The notes under the pieces are model-generated. The model worked only from the letters and a program-made list of their open reading frames with translations, did no database searches and was not told the origin of the DNA. Below, piece by piece: positions 1 through 13,866 of a stretch of DNA of 33,054 nucleotides. The stretch comes from a virus, in the IMG/VR virus record IMGVR_UViG_3300025914_000033, positions 1 to 33,054 of that record; one strand, 5' to 3'. Within the stretch, counting starts at the first letter, position 1. Each line of letters starts with the position of its first letter. The position numbers and the translations under genes are program-made.

Positions 1-16
1 TTCCAGAACCGTAGTG

Positions 17-103
17 TCAGGAGTCCTGTTCTCCCTCTGTACTGAACAGTATCAGGTAGATCACTCCACCCCAGAGAGCCAGGAAGATCAGTGAGCCTAT
101 CAT
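17..103 (-). CDS. possible 28-aa single-helix membrane protein
   Basis: Reading the minus strand from the ATG at 103 gives 28 residues ending in TGA at 19-17. Residues 2-20 are almost entirely hydrophobic (MIGSLIFLALWGGVIYLILF), followed by a short polar tail, as in a tiny inner-membrane protein. The leader GGTAAACGATTAAGCCC is A/T-rich but has no strong ribosome site. The same amino-acid style is seen in a better supported minus-strand gene at 17753-17926. The product is too short for homology to be expected, the window edge hides its neighbours, and chance cannot be excluded. No function is assigned. Confidence 0.33.
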   Translation of the reverse strand: MIGSLIFLALWGGVIYLILFSTEGEQDS

Positions 104-211
104 GGGCTTAATCGTTTACCTAAGGTAACAGATCCATAGCAGATTATCAATACTACAGTTCTAGTAGAATGTATATACTGTTCTAAGTGATACAGATACC
201 TGTCAGAAAGA

Positions 212-307
212 CCCCGGTCAATCCTGGATATAGATAGAACCCCCGGGTACCTTCTGTGGAGATAGAAGTACCCCGGTAAAATGCTGTGTATATAGGTAAC
301 CGGGTAC
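212..307. repeat. three tandem ~30-bp imperfect repeats in a divergent intergenic region
   Basis: Units begin at 212, 241 and 271, each with CCCCGG followed by a T- and G-containing stretch and a GATAGA/ATAGGTA end; a fourth unit is cut after CGGGTACC at 307. Spacing is 29-30 bp. The rest of 104-407 holds no convincing gene, a small hairpin CACTC/GAGTG at 326-338 and a CCCCGGGG palindrome near 352. Evenly spaced G/C-rich repeats between a possible minus-strand gene and the plus-strand gene at 408 could be operator or activator sites, origin iterons, or a short repeat-coding remnant. The repeat is seen; its role is inference. Confidence 0.65.
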
Positions 308-407
308 CACCTCATTCATCACATCCACTCCATGAGTGTGCTGCGCAACCCCCCGGGGCAGGTGAAGCGTTCTAACATTCAAACATTACACTCAAAACAC
401 TAAGTCA

Positions 408-623
408 ATGAAAAATCTGAACTACATTCTGTTCTACGTGGCACTTATTCTGGCTTGCTTGTCTGTCCTATCTGCACCTACAGCGGAAGACTATACCATG
501 CATACAAGTGATACAGCTATGAACAATGTGCTTATGCTATTAATCCTTGCTGTACTCTGTATAGCAGGTGCAATCGTGTTATCGTTATCTGATGAGTCCG
601 GAAGGACGAAACAGCAACTGTAG
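408..623 (+). CDS. small two-helix membrane protein
   Basis: The 71-residue product has an N-terminal hydrophobic segment at about residues 5-24, a short polar loop containing EDYTMHTSD, a second hydrophobic segment at about 39-60 and a polar, basic-acidic tail. This fits two transmembrane helices with a loop outside the cytoplasm, or a cleaved signal followed by an anchor. The start follows an A-rich leader (CACTAAGTCA) without a Shine-Dalgarno sequence, as is usual for Bacteroidota transcript-leading genes. It is the first of about eight tiny membrane proteins in the window. I do not recognise a family. Confidence 0.62.
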   Translation: MKNLNYILFYVALILACLSVLSAPTAEDYTMHTSDTAMNNVLMLLILAVLCIAGAIVLSLSDESGRTKQQL

Positions 624-631
624 TCCAATAC

Positions 632-690
632 ACTATGGTTCTGTCATAACGTAGTATTAAAAACCTTATGGTGTACAGGTCAACCATAGT
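632..690 (+). promoter_or_regulatory. long interrupted hairpin in the leader of the 697 gene
   Basis: ACTATGGTT at 632-640 is the exact complement of AACCATAGT at 682-690. Inside it CTGT (641-644) pairs with ACAG (675-678) and CATAA (645-649) with TTATG (666-670), giving about 18 pairs with small bulges on the 3' side only. The 3' strand ends seven bases before the ATG at 697, so the folded form would hide the ribosome entry site. This is the kind of element expected for translational or self-regulation, but no regulator is visible. Confidence 0.6.
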
Positions 691-696
691 AGTATC

Positions 697-1104
697 ATGG
701 CTAAATTATCAGTTATCAAAGCAGACCAGAGAGAGGCAGCTTTAGAGGCAGCAAGCAAAGCAGGTGCCAAGACCTTGGCAGGTGGATTGAATCTTCCTGA
801 GGGAACCTATCCTTTTCAGGTTGCAGACAAGAAAGCCTTTGGCTTATTGGAAGTGGAAAGTGCTGCATCTGGCAAATGGGCTTTGCCTATCGTTGCCGGA
901 TCAATGAAGGTGAACGGTAAAACCGAAACCTTTGTATTGAGTGAAGAACCGGGTGCAAAAACACTGGTTATTCCTGATGCGTTCTATACTGCAATGCAGA
1001 ACAACGCTATCTACAACATTACTATTGGCAGCCGTAAAGGTCGCAAAGTAGTAACTGGTGTAGAACCAGCAGAAGCAGGTGCAAGCACAGAGGATGACGA
1101 CTAA
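697..1104 (+). CDS. hypothetical protein with acidic C-terminal tail
   Basis: The product has 135 residues. Residues 1-30 are rich in Lys and Ala and probably helical; residues 35-118 alternate hydrophobic and polar residues with many Gly and Val, suggesting a small beta fold; the end is a flexible acidic tail (EAGASTEDDD). A basic or beta-rich body with an acidic tail is the layout of phage single-stranded nucleic-acid-binding proteins, but I see no OB-fold signature, so this is only a possibility; an abundant early or decoration protein fits as well. It stands alone between a hairpin leader and a long structured non-coding region, which suggests separate, probably strong and regulated expression. 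Confidence 0.75.
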   Translation: MAKLSVIKADQREAALEAASKAGAKTLAGGLNLPEGTYPFQVADKKAFGLLEVESAASGKWALPIVAGSMKVNGKTETFVLSEEPGAKTLVIPDAFYTAMQNNAIYNITIGSRKGRKVVTGVEPAEAGASTEDDD

Positions 1105-1117
1105 ATCTCAGTCTTGT

Positions 1118-1364
1118 AGGGGTAGGTGATGTACTCACCTATTCCCTATCTTGTTGATAGACAGCGTTGTAGCAGCATCGATGATGTAGTGGATGAGTGG
1201 TCCTGGTGGCCAGCCTCTCCGAGGCCTTCCTAACCTATCTTGACCTTGCTTACAATCCTGATCAGGAGTCAGATACCTAACTACAGTCGTATCTACCTTA
1301 CTAAAGTACTACGTTAGATCAGCACTGATTACAGCTTATAAGCATCCACTGGGATAAGCTACAA
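1118..1364 (+). ncRNA. candidate multi-helix structured RNA
   Basis: This 333-nt gene-free stretch (1105-1437) holds a strong hairpin AGGGG-TAGGTGA/TCACCTA-TTCCCT (1118-1147) and a closed domain. TTGTAGC (1167-1173) pairs with GCTACAA (1358-1364), and inside it AGTGGATG (1188-1195) with CATCCACT (1343-1350). Enclosed hairpins are CTGG/CCAG (1203-1213), GCCTC/GAGGC (1213-1225), the palindrome TCCTGATCAGGA (1256-1267) and AGATAC/GTATCT (1271-1294). Nested long-range helices enclosing several local arms are hard to explain by chance. It has no start-to-stop reading frame of note. The strand is inferred from flanking genes. The family is unknown. Confidence 0.5.
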
Positions 1365-1368
1365 GCTA

Positions 1369-1376
1369 TATCTTTG
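1369..1376 (+). promoter_or_regulatory. Bacteroidota-type promoter -7 element
   Basis: TATCTTTG matches the TAnnTTTG -7 consensus of the Bacteroidota primary sigma factor exactly. It lies just 3' of the structured region and about 60 bases before the ATG at 1438, so it could start the 1438-2959 gene string. No clear -33 TTG element is present at the expected distance. Confidence 0.5.
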
Positions 1377-1437
1377 TACCTAGATACCAGAACTGGAGAG
1401 ACATAACAGACCATTAACCTTAAATCTTAAACACATA

Positions 1438-1734
1438 ATGGAAACATCAAAACCTTGGGATATAGCTAAAGAAGCTGTCACCCAGATTACAGCCTGGCTT
1501 GAAACTACTCAGGGAGGAGCATATGAGTTCACAGATGAACAGAAGCATCAGATGACTACACAACTTCACCCATATATTCGTAATCATGGCTATGCCGAGT
1601 ATCAGAGAGCACAGCAGGAAGTAACCAATGAGATACTAATTAAGCTTATCCGTAACTTAGGGCCTAAGCAGGTAGACTCCATTGTATCCTGTCTGAGTAT
1701 GGAGATACATACTGATAACTCCATTAACCACTAA
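1438..1734 (+). CDS. hypothetical small helical protein
   Basis: The product is 98 residues and looks almost wholly alpha-helical, with amphipathic segments at about 8-20, 31-60 and 62-90. There is no signal peptide, membrane segment or Cys motif. The start at 1438 follows the leader TTAAATCTTAAACACATA, an A/T-rich Bacteroidota-style entry site. It is the first gene after the promoter element at 1369 and heads a run of small overlapping genes. I do not recognise the family; a small regulator or host-inhibitory protein would fit its place but nothing in the sequence proves that. Confidence 0.68.
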   Translation: METSKPWDIAKEAVTQITAWLETTQGGAYEFTDEQKHQMTTQLHPYIRNHGYAEYQRAQQEVTNEILIKLIRNLGPKQVDSIVSCLSMEIHTDNSINH

Positions 1735-1752
1735 AACATAGGAGATAACATC

Positions 1753-2025
1753 ATGAAATTCCCAGAATCTTTTGAAGAAAGAGTACATCCTGTAGTTCCA
1801 GGGGCTACACAATGGTTATACTTTATACCAGACAATCATCCAAATCCAGAGCTTATAGCTGGACAAACTATTATTTCAATAGTTGGAGGAGGACACGGTT
1901 TACATGGTGATGGTGTAGATACATTTGAGATGTGGGATTTTAGAGAAGATAACCCACATGGCTATCTTACAGCTGAAGAGATTAATCAACATTTACAGGA
2001 CCATCCACTAATCGATAAGCCATGA
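1753..2025 (+). CDS. hypothetical acidic protein
   Basis: The product is 90 residues, acidic and rich in Gly, His and Pro. The middle reads IISIVGGGHGLHGDG (residues 40-54), then TFEMWDF. It resembles a small beta-sandwich or enzyme-accessory fold, but no catalytic pattern can be named. The start follows GGAGATAACATC, with a weak GGAG. Its TGA overlaps the next ATG in an ATGA junction (2022-2025), so it is translationally coupled to the membrane protein that follows. Family not recognised. Confidence 0.66.
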   Translation: MKFPESFEERVHPVVPGATQWLYFIPDNHPNPELIAGQTIISIVGGGHGLHGDGVDTFEMWDFREDNPHGYLTAEEINQHLQDHPLIDKP

Positions 2026-2201
2026 CACAATACCACCTAATCAACGCAGTAATACTCTTATTCGCAGTAGCTATGTCACAGGTCAGCCTGGATATGATGA
2101 TCAATGACAAAGCAATGAAAACTAGATATGTACTCCTCGTAGTCATGCTAACAGCTGTATGCTGGGCTGCATTCTATTACTTCTCAACACTAAAGACATG
2201 A
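2022..2201 (+). CDS. small two-helix membrane protein
   Basis: The 59-residue product has hydrophobic segments at about residues 6-20 and 37-53, separated by a polar loop with DMMINDKAMKTR, and ends in STLKT. Positive charges before the second helix suggest both ends face the same side. It is joined by ATGA overlaps to genes on both sides (2022-2025 and 2198-2201), which strongly supports it despite its size. Function unknown; it is one of a series of tiny membrane proteins in the left third of the window. Confidence 0.68.
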   Translation: MTQYHLINAVILLFAVAMSQVSLDMMINDKAMKTRYVLLVVMLTAVCWAAFYYFSTLKT

Positions 2202-2419
2202 GACCAACCATATTAATGATAACTGCGGCCTTATTAGTCCAGGCCCAGGCAGGTTCTGAACTATTCTCTAATGATATGGAGCAACGAGCTTTAGATAAAT
2301 GGGAGAAGAGTAAGTCATTGCCCCGTAAGCAGAAGAAGCGTATGCGTAAGGATGCATTGCTAGACTATGCATTTGCTACTTTCGCCAGAGAGTATTCAAG
2401 CAACTTATTTAACTCCTAA
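2198..2419 (+). CDS. small secreted or periplasmic protein with signal peptide
   Basis: I take the ATG at 2198, which overlaps the previous stop, and not the upstream in-frame ATG at 2159 that lies inside the preceding gene. The 73-residue product begins with a short basic and hydrophobic stretch ending in VQAQA-G, which fits a signal peptide cut after residue 18. The mature part is highly charged, with a Lys/Arg-rich middle (PRKQKKRMRKD, about 46-56), and looks helical. A phage-made periplasmic or envelope-acting peptide is plausible. No family is recognised. Confidence 0.66.
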   Translation: MRPTILMITAALLVQAQAGSELFSNDMEQRALDKWEKSKSLPRKQKKRMRKDALLDYAFATFAREYSSNLFNS

Positions 2420-2423
2420 AGAC

Positions 2424-2669
2424 ATGAGAGCACAATTCAACTTTAACTCACGGGGAGACACAGTATGCCCCATCTGTGGTAAGGGCACACCAGAGCCTGC
2501 GATACTGGTACCGATCAATACAGAAGGAGCTACTCCCAGTAGCACTGTAGAAGCAGTACAGATACACGTAGAGTGTATCCTGCACAGTATAGAATACCTC
2601 AGGCTGGAGAGTGGCTGTGTGATCATAGCTGTTTGTGACCATCTGGTAAGAAAGGAGAGAAAATTATGA
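2424..2669 (+). CDS. small Cys-rich, probably zinc-binding protein
   Basis: I use the ATG at 2424, after the leader CTCCTAAAGAC; the earlier ATG at 2367 would run through the previous gene. The 81-residue protein has CPIC at about residues 15-18, an HVEC at about 48-51, and further Cys residues near 63 and 69. The first two pairs look like a treble-clef or zinc-ribbon-like site. It is coupled to the next gene by an ATGA junction (2666-2669). Small zinc-binding proteins are common among phage early genes, but no specific function can be given. Confidence 0.66.
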   Translation: MRAQFNFNSRGDTVCPICGKGTPEPAILVPINTEGATPSSTVEAVQIHVECILHSIEYLRLESGCVIIAVCDHLVRKERKL

Positions 2670-2959
2670 TGGTACAGAAATTACTAGGTAAGTACTTAGG
2701 CTTTCCAGACTGTTGCATTAAGTTCTTTACAGAGAGTTCAATAAATACAGTTAGAGAGAATCACGATGTAGCTGATGGTGGTTATGTTCCTTGTAATGCT
2801 TGTGCAGAGCGTATACGAGCGGGTGAGATTAAACTGGAAGAGCTAGTAGGTAGCTCTAATCCCAGGTTAACTGAGCACCCATTCTCTACCAATATTGAAT
2901 GGTTTCAGGACCCTGGCTTCATAGCTTATATACAGGAACATGGTTATATTCTAGCCTAA
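2666..2959 (+). CDS. hypothetical protein with GFPDCC and CNAC motifs
   Basis: The product is 97 residues. An LGFPDCCIKFF motif at residues 11-21 is followed by YVPCNACAERI at about 40-50. A Gly-aromatic-Pro-x-Cys-Cys pattern with a later CxxC occurs in several uncharacterised phage and archaeal protein families and suggests a metal site. A GGAGAG lies 8-13 bases before the start, inside the previous gene. The N-terminal Met-Met leaves a one-codon ambiguity (2666 or 2669). It ends this coupled set; 31 bases of A/T-rich leader follow. Confidence 0.68.
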   Translation: MMVQKLLGKYLGFPDCCIKFFTESSINTVRENHDVADGGYVPCNACAERIRAGEIKLEELVGSSNPRLTEHPFSTNIEWFQDPGFIAYIQEHGYILA

Positions 2960-2990
2960 GATTATTAACTTTACTCTAAAACTTATAGCT

Positions 2991-3218
2991 ATGTATCACA
3001 ATTCGATAATGGAACAGCTCCGTAAGTCAGGAAGACTGGAGGCTGAGCATAAGAATATTACAGTAACAGTATGCTGCGGAGATCCTGTACTGGTCTATAC
3101 AGACCCGGAACTAAAGCTCTCAGGGCATCTGCACTGCATAGACGAGAAAGGAATAAACACAGTTAAAGACCAGCTGGATGTAGAACTGTTCCAGCGGGTA
3201 TATAGTTTAGTCAGTTAG
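2991..3218 (+). CDS. hypothetical protein
   Basis: The 75-residue product begins with a short helix (residues 5-20, SIMEQLRKSGRLEAE) and continues with a beta-rich part containing VTVCCGDPVLVY at about 25-36 and a GHLHCID at about 45-51. The leader CTCTAAAACTTATAGCT is A/T-rich. Its stop lies two bases before a perfect 12-bp inverted repeat that opens a structured RNA candidate. Family not recognised. Confidence 0.62.
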   Translation: MYHNSIMEQLRKSGRLEAEHKNITVTVCCGDPVLVYTDPELKLSGHLHCIDEKGINTVKDQLDVELFQRVYSLVS

Positions 3219-3219
3219 T

Positions 3220-3432
3220 ACGCTCTGGGAGAAATCTCTTACTGGGTTGGCCCATACAGTTGGGTATAGAGGAATAGATAACCATCTCTCAGTATTGCTC
3301 CCAGAGCGTTTTAAGAACTTTCACTTAGGTGATAGGGCTGTAGTTAAAAGAGCACGATTAGCAATGATAGTCGGATATAGACTTTATCAAGCCCTCCGTA
3401 TATCCAGCAGGGAGAATCATTGTAGCTACAGC
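3220..3432 (+). ncRNA. candidate structured RNA with nested helices and pseudoknot
   Basis: Two domains are seen. First, ACGCTCTGGGAG (3220-3231) is the exact complement of CTCCCAGAGCGT (3298-3309), closing a 66-nt insert with its own TGGG/CCCA hairpin. Second, three perfect 7-bp helices nest: GCTGTAG/CTACAGC (3337-3343 with 3426-3432), CAATGAT/ATCATTG (3362-3368 with 3416-3422) and GGATATA/TATATCC (3373-3379 with 3399-3405). CCCT in the innermost loop (3392-3395) can pair with AGGG (3409-3412) outside it, an H-type pseudoknot. A TTG-started frame across this stretch (3247-3456) looks non-coding. The class is unknown. Confidence 0.6.
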
Positions 3433-3474
3433 TTAAACCAACATCTGCAAATCTAAAGTAGCAGAGTGAATCAC

Positions 3475-3600
3475 ATGAAAAGAACAACTTACACACGTCA
3501 GCCGGTCATACCACAGGGATGGACAGGCCGGGACTTTAACAACTGGGCTAAGTATATCGATACGCAGGTCAGGAAGTTATTATTCAAGAAACAGAATTGA
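3475..3600 (+). CDS. 41-aa basic peptide
   Basis: An ATG at 3475 opens a 41-residue frame ending in TGA at 3598. The product is strongly basic (about ten Lys/Arg) and aromatic, with PQGWTGRDFNNWAKYID in the middle and a KLLFKKQN end. The leader carries ATCTAAAGTAGCAGAGTGAATCAC with no clear ribosome site. The composition (Trp-Gly, Asn-Trp, amphipathic C-terminal helix) looks like a genuine small phage peptide rather than random translation. It could bind nucleic acid; this is inference only. Confidence 0.5.
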   Translation: MKRTTYTRQPVIPQGWTGRDFNNWAKYIDTQVRKLLFKKQN

Positions 3601-3624
3601 TTAACCCTTAAAAACTCTAGAACA

Positions 3625-4080
3625 ATGAATACATTTGAAACTATTTGCCAGCTAGTCGGAGTACTATTGCTGGTAGCTGCTCTGGCCAGTATACTGGTTG
3701 TAGTATTGAAGCCAGCAAGGGGCCTGCTTGGCCTCCTCTTGGTTCTAACCTTTGGGCTTACCAGCTGTAGTGGCCATATCTGTGCAGGAAAAGACTGTGG
3801 TGTTTATAAAGAACATGATACAGGTACCTATTACCGTTACAGAGCTATTAACCTGAGAACAGGGCATATTCAGCTCGCCAAGATAGATACAGTCTGGGAT
3901 GTTTACCAGGCTGTAGATACCGTATTCCTGGACAAGACGGGCTTTATTGCTGCAACTAAGGATAAAATAGCAGATACTGTGAAGCTCGGAATATGTATAG
4001 GAACTGTAACTTTGCAGGATGATACACTGATACTAAAGTCTAGTAAGTTAACTCCAGGAGATCTGGGCACTGCTGACTAA
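3625..4080 (+). CDS. membrane-anchored protein with a lipobox-like second segment
   Basis: The product is 151 residues. A first hydrophobic segment covers about residues 8-28; a second covers 33-46 and ends in LTSCSGHIC. LTSC fits a lipobox, but it sits unusually far from the start, after a first helix. The rest (50-151) is a polar, beta-rich soluble domain with the repeated pattern DTVWDVYQAVDTVFLD. The leader TTAAAAACTCTAGAACA is typical of this phage. Either a two-helix membrane protein with an outer-side domain, or a lipoprotein started further downstream, would fit. Family unknown. It is followed at once by the 4083-4426 structured RNA candidate. Confidence 0.64.
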   Translation: MNTFETICQLVGVLLLVAALASILVVVLKPARGLLGLLLVLTFGLTSCSGHICAGKDCGVYKEHDTGTYYRYRAINLRTGHIQLAKIDTVWDVYQAVDTVFLDKTGFIAATKDKIADTVKLGICIGTVTLQDDTLILKSSKLTPGDLGTAD

Positions 4081-4082
4081 TC

Positions 4083-4426
4083 TATACGCCTGTCTCTGGC
4101 TACTGAAGTCCCTGCTGGAAAGCCTAGGAAAACGAGCACACCTGTATACCAGGGCAGACGTATAAAGACATTGGGGATTAGGGAGGCAATATACCGGTTC
4201 CATCTCGGCTTACGTTAGTAGGCAATAACAGACGTAATGGACTGTTGTCCCCAAACTTATTAGATAACCTTCCAGAACTCAGACAAGCGGTGCTGAGCAA
4301 AGCTGGAGGTTATCTTCTCACATTACTCTATGAGTCCGCAGTAATAAAAGGCAAGAGTAATAGCTGTATGAGAGGGTAGCTCTGTCAAGGTCTCACCACC
4401 AAGATGGGAGTCAAGCTACTCTTCTC
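4083..4426 (+). ncRNA. candidate large multi-arm structured RNA
   Basis: Five consecutive arms fill this gene-free stretch. Arm 1: TATACG/CGTATA plus CTG/CAG and CTCTGG/CCAGGG (4083-4099 with 4149-4164). Arm 2: TTGGGGA/TCCCCAA (4171-4177 with 4248-4254) enclosing TTACGT/ACGTAA (4210-4215 with 4232-4237). Arm 3: GATAACCT/AGGTTATC and CCAG/CTGG (4263-4275 with 4303-4314) with CTCAG/CTGAG inside. Arm 4: ATTACTCT/AGAGTAAT (4322-4329 with 4354-4361). Arm 5: GTAGCT/AGCTAC (4376-4381 with 4414-4419), extendable. All closing helices are perfect or nearly so. No frame of note is open. The layout recalls the size class of large phage RNAs such as GOLLD and ROOL, but I cannot match it to either. Confidence 0.62.
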
Positions 4427-4461
4427 TACAGTTCTAGTCTATAACCTTAAACTTTAAAATC

Positions 4462-4569
4462 ATGGAAAAGAATGACAAATCTTCTGAAAACATAGCAGCA
4501 GCCATACTAATAGGACTGTTCTGCTTAGCAGTGCCAGCTCTCTGGCTAATCATCTATATAGTATTTTGA
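4462..4569 (+). CDS. 35-aa single-helix membrane peptide
   Basis: The ATG at 4462 follows ACCTTAAACTTTAAAATC, a strong A/T-rich leader. The 35 residues begin with a charged stretch MEKNDKSSEN and continue with a single hydrophobic helix from residue 11 to the end (LIGLFCLAVPALWLIIYIVF). It ends two bases before the start of the next gene. A holin-like or regulatory membrane micropeptide would look like this, but nothing identifies a function. Confidence 0.52.
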   Translation: MEKNDKSSENIAAAILIGLFCLAVPALWLIIYIVF

Positions 4570-4571
4570 GC

Positions 4572-5015
4572 ATGGAAAAGAAAATCGTAATGAGAAGCGA
4601 CAATCCCGAATGTGATTGGCCTGAAGACTTTGAACATGAAAATGGTAATTACATATGTCAGTGCTATAAATGTGGTAAAACGTTTCATGGACATAAACGG
4701 CGCGTAAAATGTAAAATTTGTGCAAATGACAGCGAGTCCCCACTAGTAACAGGCACGGCAGAGGAATTTAAGTCGTTTGGAGAATTATGCAATGAAGCAT
4801 TCGGTTTCAAGGTTTGGCATGACATTGAATTTTATACGTATGAGGAATGCGCAAGAAATTATGCAGAGAGAGCAGTTAAAGCTCTAACATCCACCCAATC
4901 CACCACCATAGAAAGGTTGACTAAAGCGCTGGAAGAGATAGTACATTTAAAAGACCCATATACGGGCCACTATAAAAGAATTGCTCGCCAAGCCTTAGCA
5001 AATATTAAAAAGTAG
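4572..5015 (+). CDS. phage protein with N-terminal zinc ribbon
   Basis: The product is 147 residues from the ATG at 4572; a TTG at 4566 would add only two residues. CQCYKCGKTFHGHKRRVKCKIC (about residues 28-49) holds two CxxC knuckles around a basic GHKRR loop, a compact zinc ribbon. The second half carries a helical region with YEECARNYAERAVKAL and an end rich in Lys and Ala. Similar zinc-ribbon plus helix proteins are widespread, uncharacterised accessory genes of tailed phages. The codon use is more A/T-rich than in the replication genes, so it may be a recent arrival. Confidence 0.72.
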   Translation: MEKKIVMRSDNPECDWPEDFEHENGNYICQCYKCGKTFHGHKRRVKCKICANDSESPLVTGTAEEFKSFGELCNEAFGFKVWHDIEFYTYEECARNYAERAVKALTSTQSTTIERLTKALEEIVHLKDPYTGHYKRIARQALANIKK

Positions 5016-5022
5016 AAAGACC

Positions 5023-5232
5023 ATGAGCACAATATTAATTGCTACCTTAATCGTATCAGTACTGTTCGTTAGCCTAGCTATCGAACTACTGATCTACGGT
5101 TTCCTTACAGCCAAATCTCCCAGGGAATTCTTCCAGGAGACGACCAGGCTTGGAGCCGTATTCGTAATAGCTACTGTACTCATCATGTCAGCAGCCATTC
5201 TATCGCTCATTAATATTTACATCCCGTTATGA
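5023..5232 (+). CDS. small two-helix membrane protein
   Basis: The product is 69 residues. Hydrophobic segments cover about residues 4-29 and 44-66, with a polar loop between (TAKSPREFFQETTRLG) that carries the basic residues and so probably faces the cytoplasm. It overlaps the next gene in an ATGA junction (5229-5232). Only seven bases separate it from the zinc-ribbon gene, so the three genes from 4462 to 5232 are probably one transcript. Family unknown. Confidence 0.65.
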   Translation: MSTILIATLIVSVLFVSLAIELLIYGFLTAKSPREFFQETTRLGAVFVIATVLIMSAAILSLINIYIPL

Positions 5233-5672
5233 AATTAGTAACTTTGAAAGAACTGAAATCAGGAGATACATTTCGTTACCAGAATTCTGATGAGCAAGAC
5301 TGGCATACTGTATCTGCTGTAGATGAGGACAGGTTATATTATCCTGGCAATATAGCTCAGAGTAACCACAGGTCAGATAATGTACTGGTGATACTGAAAG
5401 AAGAGAGTCCAGAACCAGAGGAAAGAATCCCTGGGAGCATCGATATAGAAACTACTGGACCTGGAGATAAAGTCCGGATAATAACTAAGAACGGTGAACC
5501 CTGGAATGGCTATGATACAGATAAAGAGATGGTTAAAAAGTATCTGGATTTAAAGGCTGAGTATACTATCAGTAAAGTAGATATCCATAGCTGGGTTACT
5601 TATGTTAGCCTCGTAGAAGTACCAGACAGAGTATTTAACTCAGTTAGTTTCTACCTGAGTTCTAGACTCTAA
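5229..5672 (+). CDS. hypothetical acidic protein
   Basis: The product is 147 residues. Residues 1-55 look like a small beta-barrel (VTLKELKSGDTFRY, WHTVSAVDEDRLYY), a pattern seen in short phage domains that carry a conserved LKxGDxF turn. Residues 60-75 are an acidic linker (EESPEPEERIPG). Residues 76-147 form a second beta-rich part (GDKVRIITKNGEPW, YTISKVDIHSW). No catalytic motif can be seen. It is coupled to the preceding membrane protein and is the last gene before the structured RNA and tmRNA region. Confidence 0.68.
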   Translation: MKLVTLKELKSGDTFRYQNSDEQDWHTVSAVDEDRLYYPGNIAQSNHRSDNVLVILKEESPEPEERIPGSIDIETTGPGDKVRIITKNGEPWNGYDTDKEMVKKYLDLKAEYTISKVDIHSWVTYVSLVEVPDRVFNSVSFYLSSRL

Positions 5673-5680
5673 GCTATATC

Positions 5681-5908
5681 AGCGTATGGGGTTGCAGGAG
5701 AACTGCAGACGGGCGAAATTGGTTAATCAATCGTGATTGTTAATGTGCTTAGGCATGGCCTTAGGGAACAAAGCTGATTATTTAAAGACGCTGCATGCGC
5801 TATCCAGTAAGCTTCTGGCGTGACCCAACACAGTACATAATGGGAAACTAGTCAGCCCGTGGGCGACACTACCTGACTGACTCATATCGGCCTGAGTATA
5901 ACTGGCCG
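5681..5908 (+). ncRNA. structured RNA candidate directly upstream of tmRNA
   Basis: This stretch between the 5672 stop and the tmRNA 5' end holds no gene. AGCGTATG (5681-5688) pairs with CATGCGCT (5794-5801, one G-T pair) and encloses hairpins TGCAG/CTGCA (5693-5707), TTAATCAAT/ATTGTTAA (5723-5743) and AGGC/GCCT (5751-5761). AGTCAG/CTGACT (5850-5878) and CGGCC/GGCCG (5888-5908) follow. No TAnnTTTG promoter is visible, so it may be the 5' part of a longer tmRNA precursor or a separate RNA processed from it. Confidence 0.42.
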
Positions 5909-5914
5909 TACCTT

Positions 5915-6219
5915 GGGCTCGACCGGAATTGACTGGCTGCTTAGAGTAATACAACAGGTGATGGATGATACTGTACATCTAAATTCGTATCAAGCTATAA
6001 CAGGCAAAACAGAACAAATAGGCACTATGAGCTTCGAGGAAGCTCTTGCCGTAGTTTCTAACGAAGAGCTAGCTTTAGTCTAATCTTCAAAAGATTTGCT
6101 GCATAGATCAATGCAGCTGGTGGAGCAAATAAGAGAGCTACTCTATAACTAGCTAAACCTGTAAGTGATTGTATTATTTGACGTTTCTCAGGACGAGGGT
6201 TCGAATCCCTCCGGGTCCA
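5915..6219 (+). ncRNA. ssrA: transfer-messenger RNA (tmRNA)
   Basis: tmRNA frees stalled ribosomes and tags the unfinished protein. GGGCTCG (5915-5921) pairs with CGGGTCC (6212-6218) as the acceptor stem, with G3-U70, the alanine identity pair. A T-arm GAGGG-TTCGAAT-CCCTC lies at 6195-6211. The long helix 2 is AGTAATACAA-CAGGT (5945-5959) with ACCTG (6157-6161) and TTGTATTATT (6169-6178). The tag frame ends ...SNEELALV at TAA 6081-6083, followed by the expected hairpin AATCTT/AAGATT. The resume codon is probably GGC 6021 or ACT 6024, giving a 20- or 19-residue tag, longer than usual. CCA is not encoded (A-CAA). At about 305 nt it is short for the class. Confidence 0.93.
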
Positions 6220-6280
6220 CAAGCAGTAAGAGATCTGTTCTAAAATCTCATTATTTTTAATTGTGATAAGGTTTAGGTTG

Positions 6281-6320
6281 AAGGAGCTAAAGCGCAAGGC
6301 CGAAGCTCCTTTATTTTATT
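6281..6320 (+). terminator. rho-independent terminator after tmRNA
   Basis: AAGGAGCT (6281-6288) and AGCTCCTT (6304-6311) form a perfect 8-bp stem, followed by TATTTTATT. It lies 60 bases after the tmRNA 3' end and 30 bases before the next gene, so it probably ends the tmRNA precursor. Confidence 0.78.
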
Positions 6321-6351
6321 AAATTCGTAACCAAATTAAAACACTATACTC

Positions 6352-6858
6352 ATGCCAAGATCAAAAAGACCCAGAGTGTCAAAGGTAATTGTAATGCCAA
6401 CTCTAAAACAAGTAAAAGTAGCTGTACCAGACTATCATGGGCAGCATGCCTCATCCTCATTCTTCCGTAAAGCTCATACTTATATCAAGAGCATATATGG
6501 GCAGATCACTATGCGTAGATATTACAAGGATACCATAGGAGGTATATTTTCAGCTACCAAGATTGATTATACTGGTCGGATGAAGCCACTGGATGAAGGA
6601 ACCTACTCCAAGACGGAGATCAGGCCTGAACACCCTACCACCACAAAGAAAACGACTGCCTGGAATCATCCAAATAAGCAGCAAACACGCAGTGAGAAGG
6701 CCAGGGCTCCATTCGTTAAAGCCCAGAAGGAGAAATACACTAAAACCAGCAGGACTCCTACGCTTATCTGGGGCAACGGCTCCCCTTTCGTTGGTTCTAT
6801 CAGAGCTACATTTACTGGAGCCAGGAGAAATAATATAGTAGCTTCTCCAAGCTTATAA
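6352..6858 (+). CDS. basic hypothetical protein
   Basis: The product is 168 residues and strongly basic, with a Lys/Arg/Pro-rich N-terminus (PRSKRPRVSK), a middle with ITMRRYYKDTIGGIFSATKIDY, and a Thr/Lys-rich tail that looks disordered (TTTKKTTAW, about 96-104). There are no Cys motifs or membrane helices. The charge suggests nucleic-acid binding, but no known fold is seen. The leader AAATTAAAACACTATACTC is A/T-rich and the gene starts a new unit after the tmRNA terminator. A competing frame inside it (6593-6838) is a shadow. Confidence 0.62.
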   Translation: MPRSKRPRVSKVIVMPTLKQVKVAVPDYHGQHASSSFFRKAHTYIKSIYGQITMRRYYKDTIGGIFSATKIDYTGRMKPLDEGTYSKTEIRPEHPTTTKKTTAWNHPNKQQTRSEKARAPFVKAQKEKYTKTSRTPTLIWGNGSPFVGSIRATFTGARRNNIVASPSL

Positions 6859-7044
6859 TCTATAGCAGTGTGTTCAGTCTCCCGAGGAGCATTGAGGGAC
6901 TTAATGTTGACCGTTATCAACAGCTGCTTAATTTACTTATCTTTATCTAACTGCCACATGCGTTAACCATTACCGGTGAGTGCAGCATTACCTAAGCCTG
7001 GTCTTTGAGAAGGGATTAGGCTTTACTTTTAAACTCTAGAACTT
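6859..7044 (+). other. gene-free leader with several hairpins
   Basis: No open frame of interest. Visible helices are TGTTGA/TCAACA (6905-6922), AAGCCT/AGGCTT (6994-6999 with 7018-7023, followed by TACTTTTAAA, possibly a weak terminator) and a longer-range GCTGC/GCAGC (6923-6927 with 6982-6986). TATCTTTA near 6939 is one base off the TAnnTTTG promoter element. It is less convincing as an RNA gene than the longer regions to its left. Confidence 0.35.
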
Positions 7045-10315: not shown

Positions 10316-10776
10316 TAACTGTAGAAGGACAGCCGTTTATGAAATACCAGTATGCTATTTATACTTGGGGAGGGTTCTATAATCAGGAATACCAGTCCCA
10401 GCATAAATATGAGCCTGGCCAAAGAGTATTCGATACTAAAGAAGAACGGGATGATTATATAGCTGATCTCAGGGTTAAAGAAATTAGTCTTGATGCACGC
10501 CATTTGATGATGGTCTTGGATGAAGGCTTTGCTGTCAATGAGGTTCTGACTTGTCATCGGGTTATTAAATTTGAAGGCAAGTATTACTATTCTTCAGATG
10601 TTATTAGTGTCTGGGGTACTTTTGAGGAAGGTGTATTTGGTACAGCCAGTTATCATATGAGATGGAAATGGTATCCTGGGTTTAATGATTATCCTGCAGG
10701 AGAAGGTAAGGACTACTCTAAGGCTGAAGTAATACAGGAATGGATAACAGGGGCATTTAAACCAGATGAATCATGA
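10312..10776 (+). CDS. hypothetical aromatic-rich protein
   Basis: The product is 154 residues, rich in Tyr, Trp and Gly (YAIYTWGGFYNQEYQ near 13-27; YYYSSDVISVWGTF near 90-103; MRWKWYPGFNDYP near 116-128). It looks beta-rich and soluble. A central helix carries DTKEERDDYIADLRVKE. It overlaps the polymerase start by four bases. I do not recognise it; the position directly before the polymerase suggests shared regulation, not necessarily shared function. Confidence 0.62.
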   Translation: MITVEGQPFMKYQYAIYTWGGFYNQEYQSQHKYEPGQRVFDTKEERDDYIADLRVKEISLDARHLMMVLDEGFAVNEVLTCHRVIKFEGKYYYSSDVISVWGTFEEGVFGTASYHMRWKWYPGFNDYPAGEGKDYSKAEVIQEWITGAFKPDES

Positions 10777-12749
10777 TCTATACAGTAGGTAATCTACCTG
10801 ACTCCCACAGGTACGTAAGAACGACATTCCAGCATTTCCTGGACTGGGAGAAAGTACAGAGTGCCTGGCAGCTGGATTTGGAGACTAATATTACCAAGAC
10901 CAGGCTGGGCAGGATCATTCGTACCATCCAGTTTGGTGAGGTTAGGACCAGCTTTAATGACCTGGGCATACGCTGGGTACTAGTCTGGGATGATCTTTCA
11001 GAACTGGAGAGAAAGCAGCTGGAGGTGATCCTAAGCAATCCAGGTAAGAAGAAATATATCCATAACGCTGACTTTGAGTACCAGACCCTACTAAACTATG
11101 GTATTGTACTGGAGAACGTAGTGGATACCATGCTGCAGGAACAGATCAAGTGGACCGGCTATTTCACCGGAGAAGAAGATGACAATGGCAACAGCTTTTT
11201 CAGCTTAGCCGGTTGTCTGCACCGGTATTGGCAGATCGTACTGGATAAGAGCTATCAGGCTGCATTTGTACCGGGTATCCCACTTACTGAAGGCCACGTG
11301 GTCTATGCAGCAGATGATGTGACTCATCTGGATATGCTCTCTGATGCCCAGCTTAGATTCCTGAAACAGGAAGGACTACTGAACGTAGCAGCACTGGAGA
11401 ACGAAGCCGTATTGGCATTCGGAGACATTAGCTGGAACGGAATGCGGCTCGACAAGGATAAGTGGATGAGCAATTACGAACTGGCAGAACCGGAAGTAGC
11501 CAAGTACAAGAAGATCATGGACGAATGGCTCACCAAGGATAAGGTATTGCATAAGTATGCCATCGAGAACGAGATTATCTGTACGGAAGATACGGTAACC
11601 TTTAACAGGAATGCACCCAGGCAGCGGGAAGCTCTGGTTCAGAAGCTATTCTCGGATATTCCAGGGGCTACTAAGCCTATACTGCTGAAATACCTGAAAG
11701 ATAACCGGGAACGCCTGACTGAGGAACAGCAGCAAATGCTGGAGGAAATGGCCGGTGGGGACTACATACGGGGGTATACCCACCTGGCTCATTTCCATAG
11801 GGACTGGCTACTGGAGCAAGGCTTCCTGAGACCTAAGGGAAATATCGAGATCAACTGGAATAGCCGGGACCAGATCCTGCCAATGTTCCAGAAGCTGGAT
11901 AAGAAGCTGAAGGATCTCTCTGAGAAATCCAGGAATGCTTTCGAGCACCCGATAGTAGCTGACTTTGAGAAGTATAAATCTTCTCTGAAGCTGCTGAATG
12001 CCTATGGCTTGAAGTTCTTTGAGCATGTGGATATGGATGGGATGGTACGGACACGCTTCAACCAGGTTCTGAACACAGGCCGGGTAAGCTCCAGCCAGCC
12101 AAATATGCAGCAGATTCCTCTGCTAGACGAGGATGGGCCGGATCCATATCGATATCGGAATGCTTTCGTCCCTGCAGAACCTGGATATGTATTCGTAGAC
12201 TCGGATTATAGCTCCCAGGAACTAGTTACCATTGCTGAGATCTCCAGGGATCCTGTATGGCTGGAAGCATTAGCCAAAGGTCAGGATCTCCATTCCGTAT
12301 GTGCCCATATGATGTATAAGAAACGCTGGGAAGATGCCACAGAACCTGGTTGTAAGTACTTTGCCAGGGATGAGAAGGGAGAGATCCTGAAGAAGAAGTG
12401 CAAGTGTACTAAGCATAAGACTATGCGATATGATACCAAATGTGTGGACTTTGGATTAGCATACGGCATGTCCCAGTTCAAGCTGGCAGGGGAGTTAAAG
12501 ATCACTGTACCTGAAGCTGAGAAGCTAATGGTGGAGTATTTCACTACATTCCCCAGTATCGGACAGTGCCTGGCTAACTTTGGTGGCTATGGAGTACAGA
12601 CAGGGATGATCAAGACCCTGGCTCCGTTTAACCGGAAGAGATGGTTCCCTGAATGGGCTAAGGTAAAGGATCATATCCCTTATCATATACAACGTATCAA
12701 GTATAATTCGACTTTAGGAAGTATAGAAAGAGCTTCCAAAAATTTGCCT
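10773..12749 (+). CDS. polA: PolA-family DNA polymerase, exon 1 (exonuclease, motifs A and B)
   Basis: Exon 1 encodes 659 residues of the replicative family A polymerase. The 3'-5' exonuclease comes first: QLDLETN (Exo I), IHNADFEYQTL (Exo II) and YAADDVTHLDML (Exo III). Polymerase motif A is FVDSDYSSQELVTIA and motif B KCVDFGLAYGMSQ. Motif C is missing here and lies in exon 2 at 13612. The frame continues to a stop at 12836, but those last 29 codons are intron; the natural exon end after ...SIERASKNLP is fixed by P1 pairing. Spliced, the enzyme has 743 residues with no 5'-3' exonuclease domain. It overlaps the preceding gene by four bases. Confidence 0.93.
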
Positions 12750-13611
12750 AGACGTATGGGCAGTTTAAATCGGGTGAACTCAGGGAAGGCTAAAGCTTGT
12801 AAGACAGCCATGCTAATCCTGAGCCAAGCCGCGTAGGACTTTGGTTACGCGGAAGGTGCAACGACTAGAGAGATGAGTTCCAACAATAATTCTCTCCAAG
12901 AGCGCCCGAACTTTGTAATAATATCATATCTTTATCCTATTATGGAAAAGATATTATGTAGAGAATGTAAACAGTCAAAAGAGTTAGACGAGTTTTATAG
13001 GAGAAAATCAGATGGTAAGCTTACTAATAAAATTTGTAAGACCTGTCGGAGAGAACAAGCCAAGAATGCTTACTATGAGAAAGGTGGTTTTGATGCTTTA
13101 AAGCAATGGAGAGAAGAAAATCCAGAGCTTTATAGATTACAGCATCAAACTAATAATCGAAAAAGAAAAGAGAGAATGGCTATAGATCCTGAGTTTGCTA
13201 ACTATGTTAGAGAACAGAAACGTCTAAATCATAAAAAGAACTTTATTAGTGGTATGGTTTCAAGAGCAAGACAAAGAGCAACTAAATTAGGACTTCAGTT
13301 CGAAGTAACAGTAGAAAATATTGTTATTCCTGAACTTTGCCCTATTTTGGAAGTACCTCTTGTTCTAGGGACTAAAGGAGATTACCAATTCTCCCCTTCT
13401 ATTGATAGGTTAGACTCAAGTAAGGGATATACTCTTGATAATATTAGAGTTATTTCTTCGCTAGCTAATACAATGAAGAACTGTGCTACTAAAGATCAGT
13501 TACTTACATTCTCCAGGAATATTCCTGTTTATATACAAAGTGTGATATAGTCTGATCTTACGGGAAAACCGTAAGAATCTGAGGATAAAGAGCCTCAGAG
13601 ATAACAAATTG
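12750..13611 (+). mobile_element. group I intron (IA-like) in the polymerase gene
   Basis: Exon end TTGCCT (12744-12749) pairs with GGGCAG (12758-12763) as P1 with the required U-G at the cut, and GTAT (12754-12757) pairs with ATAC at the start of exon 2 as P10. P3 TCGGG/CCCGA (12770-12774, 12905-12909), P4 CTCAGG/CCTGAG (12779-12784, 12818-12823), P5 GGCT/AGCC, P6 CCGCGTA/TACGCGG (12829-12852), P7 GACTA/TAGTC (12863-12867, 13548-13552). The hairpin GAGAGA/TCTCTC between P7 and P3 is typical of subgroup IA. Two 7-bp hairpins (13557-13575, 13578-13599) form the P9 region. The last base is G 13611. Length 862 nt. Confidence 0.93.
12942..13550 (+). CDS. HNH homing endonuclease inside the intron
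   Basis: The product has 202 residues from ATG 12942; an upstream ATG at 12873 lies in the intron core and is unlikely. The N-terminus has two CxxC pairs (C6/C9 and C32/C35), a zinc finger, followed by a basic helical linker. The C-terminal core ELCPILEVPL...SPSIDRLDSSKGYTLDNIRVISS is the HNH fold of endonucleases that cut intron-free alleles. The stop TAG overlaps the 3' strand of P7. It is much more A/T-rich than the exons, a sign of separate origin. HNH enzymes in group I introns of phage polymerase genes are known from the SPO1 group (I-HmuI). Confidence 0.9.
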   Translation: MEKILCRECKQSKELDEFYRRKSDGKLTNKICKTCRREQAKNAYYEKGGFDALKQWREENPELYRLQHQTNNRKRKERMAIDPEFANYVREQKRLNHKKNFISGMVSRARQRATKLGLQFEVTVENIVIPELCPILEVPLVLGTKGDYQFSPSIDRLDSSKGYTLDNIRVISSLANTMKNCATKDQLLTFSRNIPVYIQSVI

Positions 13612-13866
13612 ATACAAGGATCGTGCGCGGATATGATGAAGTATGCTCTGGTTCTGGTAAGAAGGTATATCAATGATAATGGCCTGAGACATAAGGTAAA
13701 GATGGTTATGCAGGTGCATGATCAGTTGACCACTGAGTGCATAGAGGACTTTGCAGATGAGTGGGGTAAGATCATGACAGGGCTAATGGAGAGAGCGGGT
13801 AAGCTGATTATCACCTCAGGTATATTAAAAGCGGATACTAATAAATCACCAATATGGACCAAATAA
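13612..13866 (+). CDS. polA: PolA-family DNA polymerase, exon 2 (motif C)
   Basis: Exon 2 adds 84 residues and restores the family A order: after ...SKNLP comes IQGSCADMMKYALV, the segment that normally follows motif B, and then motif C MQVHDQLTTE with the catalytic His-Asp. The usual HDE is HDQ here. A TTG at 13609 gives the look of a separate gene, but it belongs to the intron end. Exon 1 and exon 2 lengths (1977 and 255 bases) keep the frame. The stop overlaps the next gene by 13 bases. Confidence 0.92.
   Translation: MQGSCADMMKYALVLVRRYINDNGLRHKVKMVMQVHDQLTTECIEDFADEWGKIMTGLMERAGKLIITSGILKADTNKSPIWTK

Follow-up and report, generated by a model that had tools for sequence, protein, structure and literature searches.

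Among phage-encoded RNAs, the closest described counterparts of the candidate considered here are GOLLD (RF02032), ROOL and phage tmRNA (RF00023). GOLLD is an RNA of ~833 nt whose 3' region is universally conserved (PMC12286853), while ROOL is a phage-encoded, ornate RNA located close to tRNA islands (PMC12286853), with a secondary structure that includes multiple pseudoknots (PMC12286853). GOLLD is also found near tRNA genes, and lies upstream of polA in one relative (L019) of the virus studied here. The window, i.e., the whole stretch of DNA that was analysed, is a virus record of 33 kb. It encodes a tmRNA 1.5 kb downstream of a gap between two genes, in which an RNA with five successive arms had been proposed from the DNA letters.

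CrAss-like phages were among the matches of the UDG, PolA and Dda-like helicase of the window; the top matches of the helicase and PolA were mostly Crassvirales records, and those of UDG included unannotated records. The genes on the side of the candidate RNA all point in the same direction, and upstream of ung-polA, where the candidate is sited, the DNA is rich in gaps. For L009-L012 and L014, the closest relatives with enough upstream sequence and the ones on which these shares are based, 12-21% of ~8 kb upstream of polA was devoid of plus-strand ORFs, compared with 0-1% downstream, at an ORF cut-off of 55 aa, so that genes shorter than 55 aa could lower the upstream figure. For relatives such as L019, L033 and L037, non-coding shares reaching 60% ahead of polA were discarded, as they partly reflect minus-strand genes. 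The PolA gene of the window (10773-13866) is split, with an HNH-type ORF at 12873-13550 (recognised by eye) inside it and the C-terminal part (MIQGSCADMMK...) at 13609-13866, 3' of that ORF. This split resembles the insertion of an intron or homing element, and no group I/II intron was detected at the Rfam gathering score.

Five-arm fold of a non-coding gap

The gap holding the candidate is non-coding. On the plus strand, no ATG start giving ≥50 aa was present in 4081-4461, and the longest open frame, 65 codons without a stop (4182-4376), had a codon score of -0.076 as compared with 0.03-0.50 for 22 genes of the window. Searches against Pfam and PHROG at E ≤ 0.1 returned no match for the gap, nor did tblastn of the open frame. 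Protein-coding conservation, which the original prediction had named as a finding that would speak against an RNA, thus left no sign in codon score, Pfam, PHROG or tblastn. Reading of the gap as a recoded gene (TAG or TGA read through) was also rejected, as the gaps persist in relatives and the frame continuing the upstream gene contains all three stops, meaning that no single stop-codon reassignment opens that frame.

The minimum-energy fold of 4081-4440 has an energy of -114.7 kcal/mol and comprises five arms that span the gap, which runs from the stop of ORF 3625-4080 to the ATG at 4462 (Table 1). The closing helices of arms 1-5 showed mean pair probabilities of 0.82-0.95; the proposal of five arms side by side, filling the gap between the genes, was therefore confirmed by fold and pair probabilities, each arm lying where it had been placed. 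The apical loop of arm 1 is A-rich/purine-rich and carries the self-complementary palindrome CCUAGG, and arm 2 encloses two hairpins (4208-4223 and 4227-4246). Perfect helices occur in arm 3, where GATAACCT (4263-4270) pairs with AGGTTATC (4307-4314), and in arm 4, where ATTACTCT (4322-4329) pairs with AGAGTAAT (4354-4361). Arm 4 abuts arm 5, so that stacking of the two is possible. Arm 5 is not followed by a U-tract, indicating that it is not an intrinsic terminator, and terminator prediction listed none there; no promoter or terminator for a discrete transcript from the gap was identified.

Table 1. Positions of the candidate RNA, its arms and neighbouring features in the window
Feature	Position	Strand	Details
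Hammerhead-like site	574-663		Rfam HH9, 22.2 bits, below the family cut-off
Upstream gene, 151 aa	3625-4080	+	Function unknown; from the ORF list; its stop is the 5' border of the gap
Non-coding gap holding the candidate RNA	4081-4461	+	381 nt; no plus-strand ORF ≥50 aa
Arm 1	4083-4164	+	Helix 4083-4103/4144-4164, 18 pairs with bulges; pair probability 0.87; z -0.9
Arm 2, multibranch	4165-4258	+	Helix 4171-4178/4247-4254; z -2.2
Arm 3	4262-4315	+	Helix 4262-4275/4303-4315, 13 pairs; z -4.2, 0/500
Arm 4	4322-4361	+	Helix 4322-4332/4352-4361; z -1.6
Arm 5, long hairpin	4362-4433	+	Helix 4362-4381/4414-4433, 19 pairs; z -3.3, 1/500
Downstream ORF, 35 aa	4462-4569	+	Hydrophobic; best PHROG E 0.15; no confident family
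Downstream gene, 147 aa	4572-5015	+	Matches phrog_8931 and phrog_10481, both of unknown function
Conserved leader element	5777-5844	+	TATCCAGTAAGCTTCTGGCG and a hairpin with loop AACACAGTACATAAT
tmRNA	5915-6222	+	RF00023, 77 bits against a gathering score of 47

Comparison with shuffled sequences revealed that the candidate folds only moderately better than chance. The whole fold had a z of -3.31 (0/100 shuffles) in one test and of -2.33 (5/300 shuffles) over 4083-4438, and the signal came from the 3' half (z -3.45, 2/500), namely arms 3 and 5, as opposed to the 5' half (z -1.1); arms 1 and 4 were not significant alone. The minus strand of the candidate folds too (z -1.7), and 28 of the 182 windows of 360 nt matched or beat the z of the candidate, many coding windows among them. 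For non-overlapping perfect Watson-Crick arms, P was 0.08, 0.07 and 0.04 at 6, 7 and 8 bp, respectively, so the argument that such arms are not to be expected by chance is weaker than claimed. Better-than-chance folding stood for the 3' half and arms 3 and 5 and failed for the 5' half and arms 1 and 4, and the number of perfect arms was borderline. As yardsticks, the tmRNA of the window had a z of -2.7, the GOLLD of a relative -1.5 and a tRNA -0.1; since the values of known RNAs are no sharper, a modest z is compatible with a real RNA without proving one.

Known RNA classes and homologues

All 4227 Rfam families, GOLLD, ROOL, raiA, OLE and HEARO included, were searched on 4070-4470 at E ≤ 10 without a match. 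Likewise, no self-cleaving ribozyme or group I/II intron core was found in this stretch at E ≤ 10, and the tmRNA model RF00023 gave no match there. The GOLLD 3' region was not found in positions 1-7000 of the window at E ≤ 5, and a scan of the full 33 kb at the gathering score did not reveal it either; the same Rfam library detected GOLLD in L019 and L091. Hence, the comparison with GOLLD and ROOL that had been drawn originally received no support from these models as one of family membership, while the assignment to no known class held, the stretch being non-coding, significantly folded in its 3' half and free of Rfam matches at E ≤ 10. A tRNA with an intron was dismissed as a candidate, the very permissive ARAGORN run behind it having predicted 225 genes, which is meaningless. 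An 11-nt complementarity between 3403-3413 and 4109-4119 was dismissed as well, being compatible with chance (three such pairs against an estimated ~1.6 expected in the region).

With both flanking proteins as anchors, no relative was found among viral contigs. The sequence of the closest relative by PolA (L002, 96%) starts only within ung, so that the candidate region is missing from it. An alignment-based PolA scan yielded 80 loci, to which 68 further loci were added, and blastn and nhmmer searches of the candidate RNA against these 80 and 68 loci revealed no homologue; with 541 queries, weak nhmmer matches (E 0.016) are to be expected. Single-sequence covariance models of the 3' half (R2) and the 5' half (R3) were run on most loci, and in a total of 1.58 Mb of DNA from related phages they identified the window only, other matches having E values of 0.1-3.4. 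The same models found nothing on 41 whole contigs, which held no positive control, and the DNA pattern of the arm 1 loop had no match in the viral contigs. The candidate RNA thus appears to be an orphan within the sets searched, to which its absence is limited; single-sequence models are weak detectors, so that it is not proven unique.

Leader element and other RNAs of the neighbourhood

Several further RNAs were identified near the candidate. The tmRNA of the window (5915-6222) was not called by ARAGORN, and possibly has an unusually long tag frame ending in ...MSFEEALAVVSNEELALV and a stop. By eye, the hammerhead-like site displays a CUGAUGA...GAAA core, stem II, a GUC cleavage site (645) and three complete stems, with a stem I of 6 bp (CGUUAU 583-588/AUAACG 646-651), suggesting that 583-651 is probably a hammerhead self-cleaving ribozyme; it overlaps the 3' end of ORF 408-623. 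A further RNA candidate is the non-coding gap 3219-3474, which has a z of -2.9 and contains the long hairpin ACGCTCTGGGAG/CTCCCAGAGCGT. Among relatives, the GOLLD upstream of polA in L019 scored 222 bits, and the same region held tRNAs and, in L032, a predicted permuted tmRNA. Some environmental crAss-like phages thus have several RNA genes upstream of ung-polA. The five-arm RNA becomes more plausible solely through its location among these RNAs.

The leader element lies 1.3 kb from the candidate RNA, immediately before the tmRNA. The gap holding it (5673-5914) shares 27 of 28 identical nt with a gap of L051 (element at L051:5222-5262), and the pattern TATCCAGTAAGnnnCTGGCG was found in 68 stretches of viral contigs, of which a few could be chance matches at such a length. 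Besides the window and L051, carriers include L088, L089, L091, L097, L103, L120 and ~60 more. No match of a related pattern was found in 84,980 prokaryote species genomes, no Rfam match in the L051 stretch, and no match of the representative stretches of L103 and L120 among 50,697 phage records. The copies consist of two tandem hairpins and, after them, a third whose type can be exchanged; the loops stay constant while the stems vary. In the first hairpin, compensatory changes were observed in 6 of 7 pairs (27 sequences, 57 cells), with a covariation score of 0.506 versus 0.188 for shuffled data (0/500) and 0.01-0.11 in a sliding control. The second hairpin is invariant and hence conserved, yet covariation gives no test of it. 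In the copy of the window (26 bits, E 1e-6), the first hairpin is shortened and the second kept, and the third has CCC/GGG around AACACAGTACATAAT, where relatives have CTC/GAG or TTC/GAA around the same loop. Given this strong covariation, the leader element is a well-supported RNA family absent from Rfam. A scan of 4081-4461 with the leader model revealed no copy.

Whole contigs carried one copy of the leader element in 16 of 18 cases and two in the other 2, and 4 of these 18 carriers had a polA of the type seen in the window, indicating that the distribution of the element extends beyond phages with that polymerase. In the L097, L120 and L126 contigs, a GOLLD match starts ~500 nt downstream of the leader element on the same strand, and in L098 the element is followed by a tmRNA-like match and then GOLLD. 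By eye, it sits elsewhere before an ATG (L114) or before a terminator-like hairpin (L095). The GOLLD variants downstream of the leader are divergent (L091:111-493 on the minus strand, L120, L126 and L097), scoring 88-117 bits, below the gathering score. Hatchet and Pistol ribozymes were observed in leader-carrying loci (L151:10438-10575, minus strand; L113:1434-1498), as would fit with self-cleaving ribozymes being located close to such RNA genes. The element could be an extended 5' part of GOLLD, outside the 3'-region model of Rfam, whereas the copies found without any GOLLD match favour an independent leader. We infer that it might act in antitermination, or else in the processing of RNA units that are not translated. 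Occurring before RNAs such as tmRNA and GOLLD, the leader element offers an unexpected way into the question of how they are made or processed; it is a stronger result than the five-arm RNA and the part of the region best worth following.

Readings of the candidate and known large phage RNAs

The gap is best read as holding a structured RNA of the phage that fits no known class and is either a stand-alone RNA or part of a UTR. Tentatively, we prefer the form of this reading in which 4081-4461 encodes a structured RNA of ~350 nt in the RNA-rich region of a crAss-like phage. It is somewhat unlikely that the arms are instead UTR elements of the flanking mRNAs, serving stability or translation control of the 35-aa ORF, with no separate RNA: the unidirectional genes, the A-rich leader before the ATG at the gap end, like that of other gaps in the region, and the failure to find a promoter or terminator belonging to the gap are consistent with such elements, whereas a phage UTR of 350 nt with five arms would be a long one, and nothing known of the two flanking genes calls for it. 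Chance folding of non-functional intergenic DNA appears rather unlikely. The values for perfect arms (P 0.04-0.08), the 28 of 182 windows folding as well by z, the low z of the 5' half (-1.1), the folding of the minus strand and the lack of conservation in the sets searched would all fit with it, but the z values of arms 3 (-4.2) and 5 (-3.3) and the real RNAs in neighbouring gaps argue against it, and useless DNA of 380 nt is rarely kept by phages.

A divergent GOLLD, ROOL or other known large phage RNA, as might be suspected from the similar order of size, the many arms and the GOLLD that one relative carries upstream of polA, is very improbable in view of the empty Rfam search at E ≤ 10 and the missing GOLLD 3' region. 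Similarly, an overlooked or decayed coding stretch would be placed in 4182-4376, where the plus strand has one stop-free run of 65 codons, and the lack of an ATG ORF of ≥50 aa, the negative codon score (-0.076) and the lack of Pfam, PHROG or tblastn matches make it highly improbable.

If a separate structured RNA is encoded, as we prefer, it would be produced as part of the rightward transcript from the gap-rich stretch that precedes ung-polA and would act as a folded non-coding RNA, not as spacer DNA. Since searches of the candidate revealed no core of a known ribozyme, a scaffold or a platform for RNA-RNA interaction is more probable than a ribozyme. The CCUAGG of the arm 1 loop might, at a guess, be a dimerisation or kissing-loop site. 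A bolder proposal, which we consider decidedly unlikely, is that the candidate is the first member of a new class of ornate phage RNA, belonging to a set of dedicated RNAs that environmental crAss-like phages keep upstream of ung-polA, and that it may assemble by loop-loop contacts as GOLLD and ROOL do.

Compared with the known systems, the candidate lacks the RF00023 match expected of phage tmRNA, which has tRNA-like ends and a T arm, and its structure is less complex than that of ROOL, to which no Rfam match links it. It differs from GOLLD in size, GOLLD being at least ~800 nt and the candidate ~356 nt in a gap of 381 nt with no trace of the GOLLD 3' region, and resembles it in being large, many-armed and phage-encoded. 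If real, it would be an orphan joining the few large RNAs known from phages, represented by GOLLD and ROOL, whose function has long been open.
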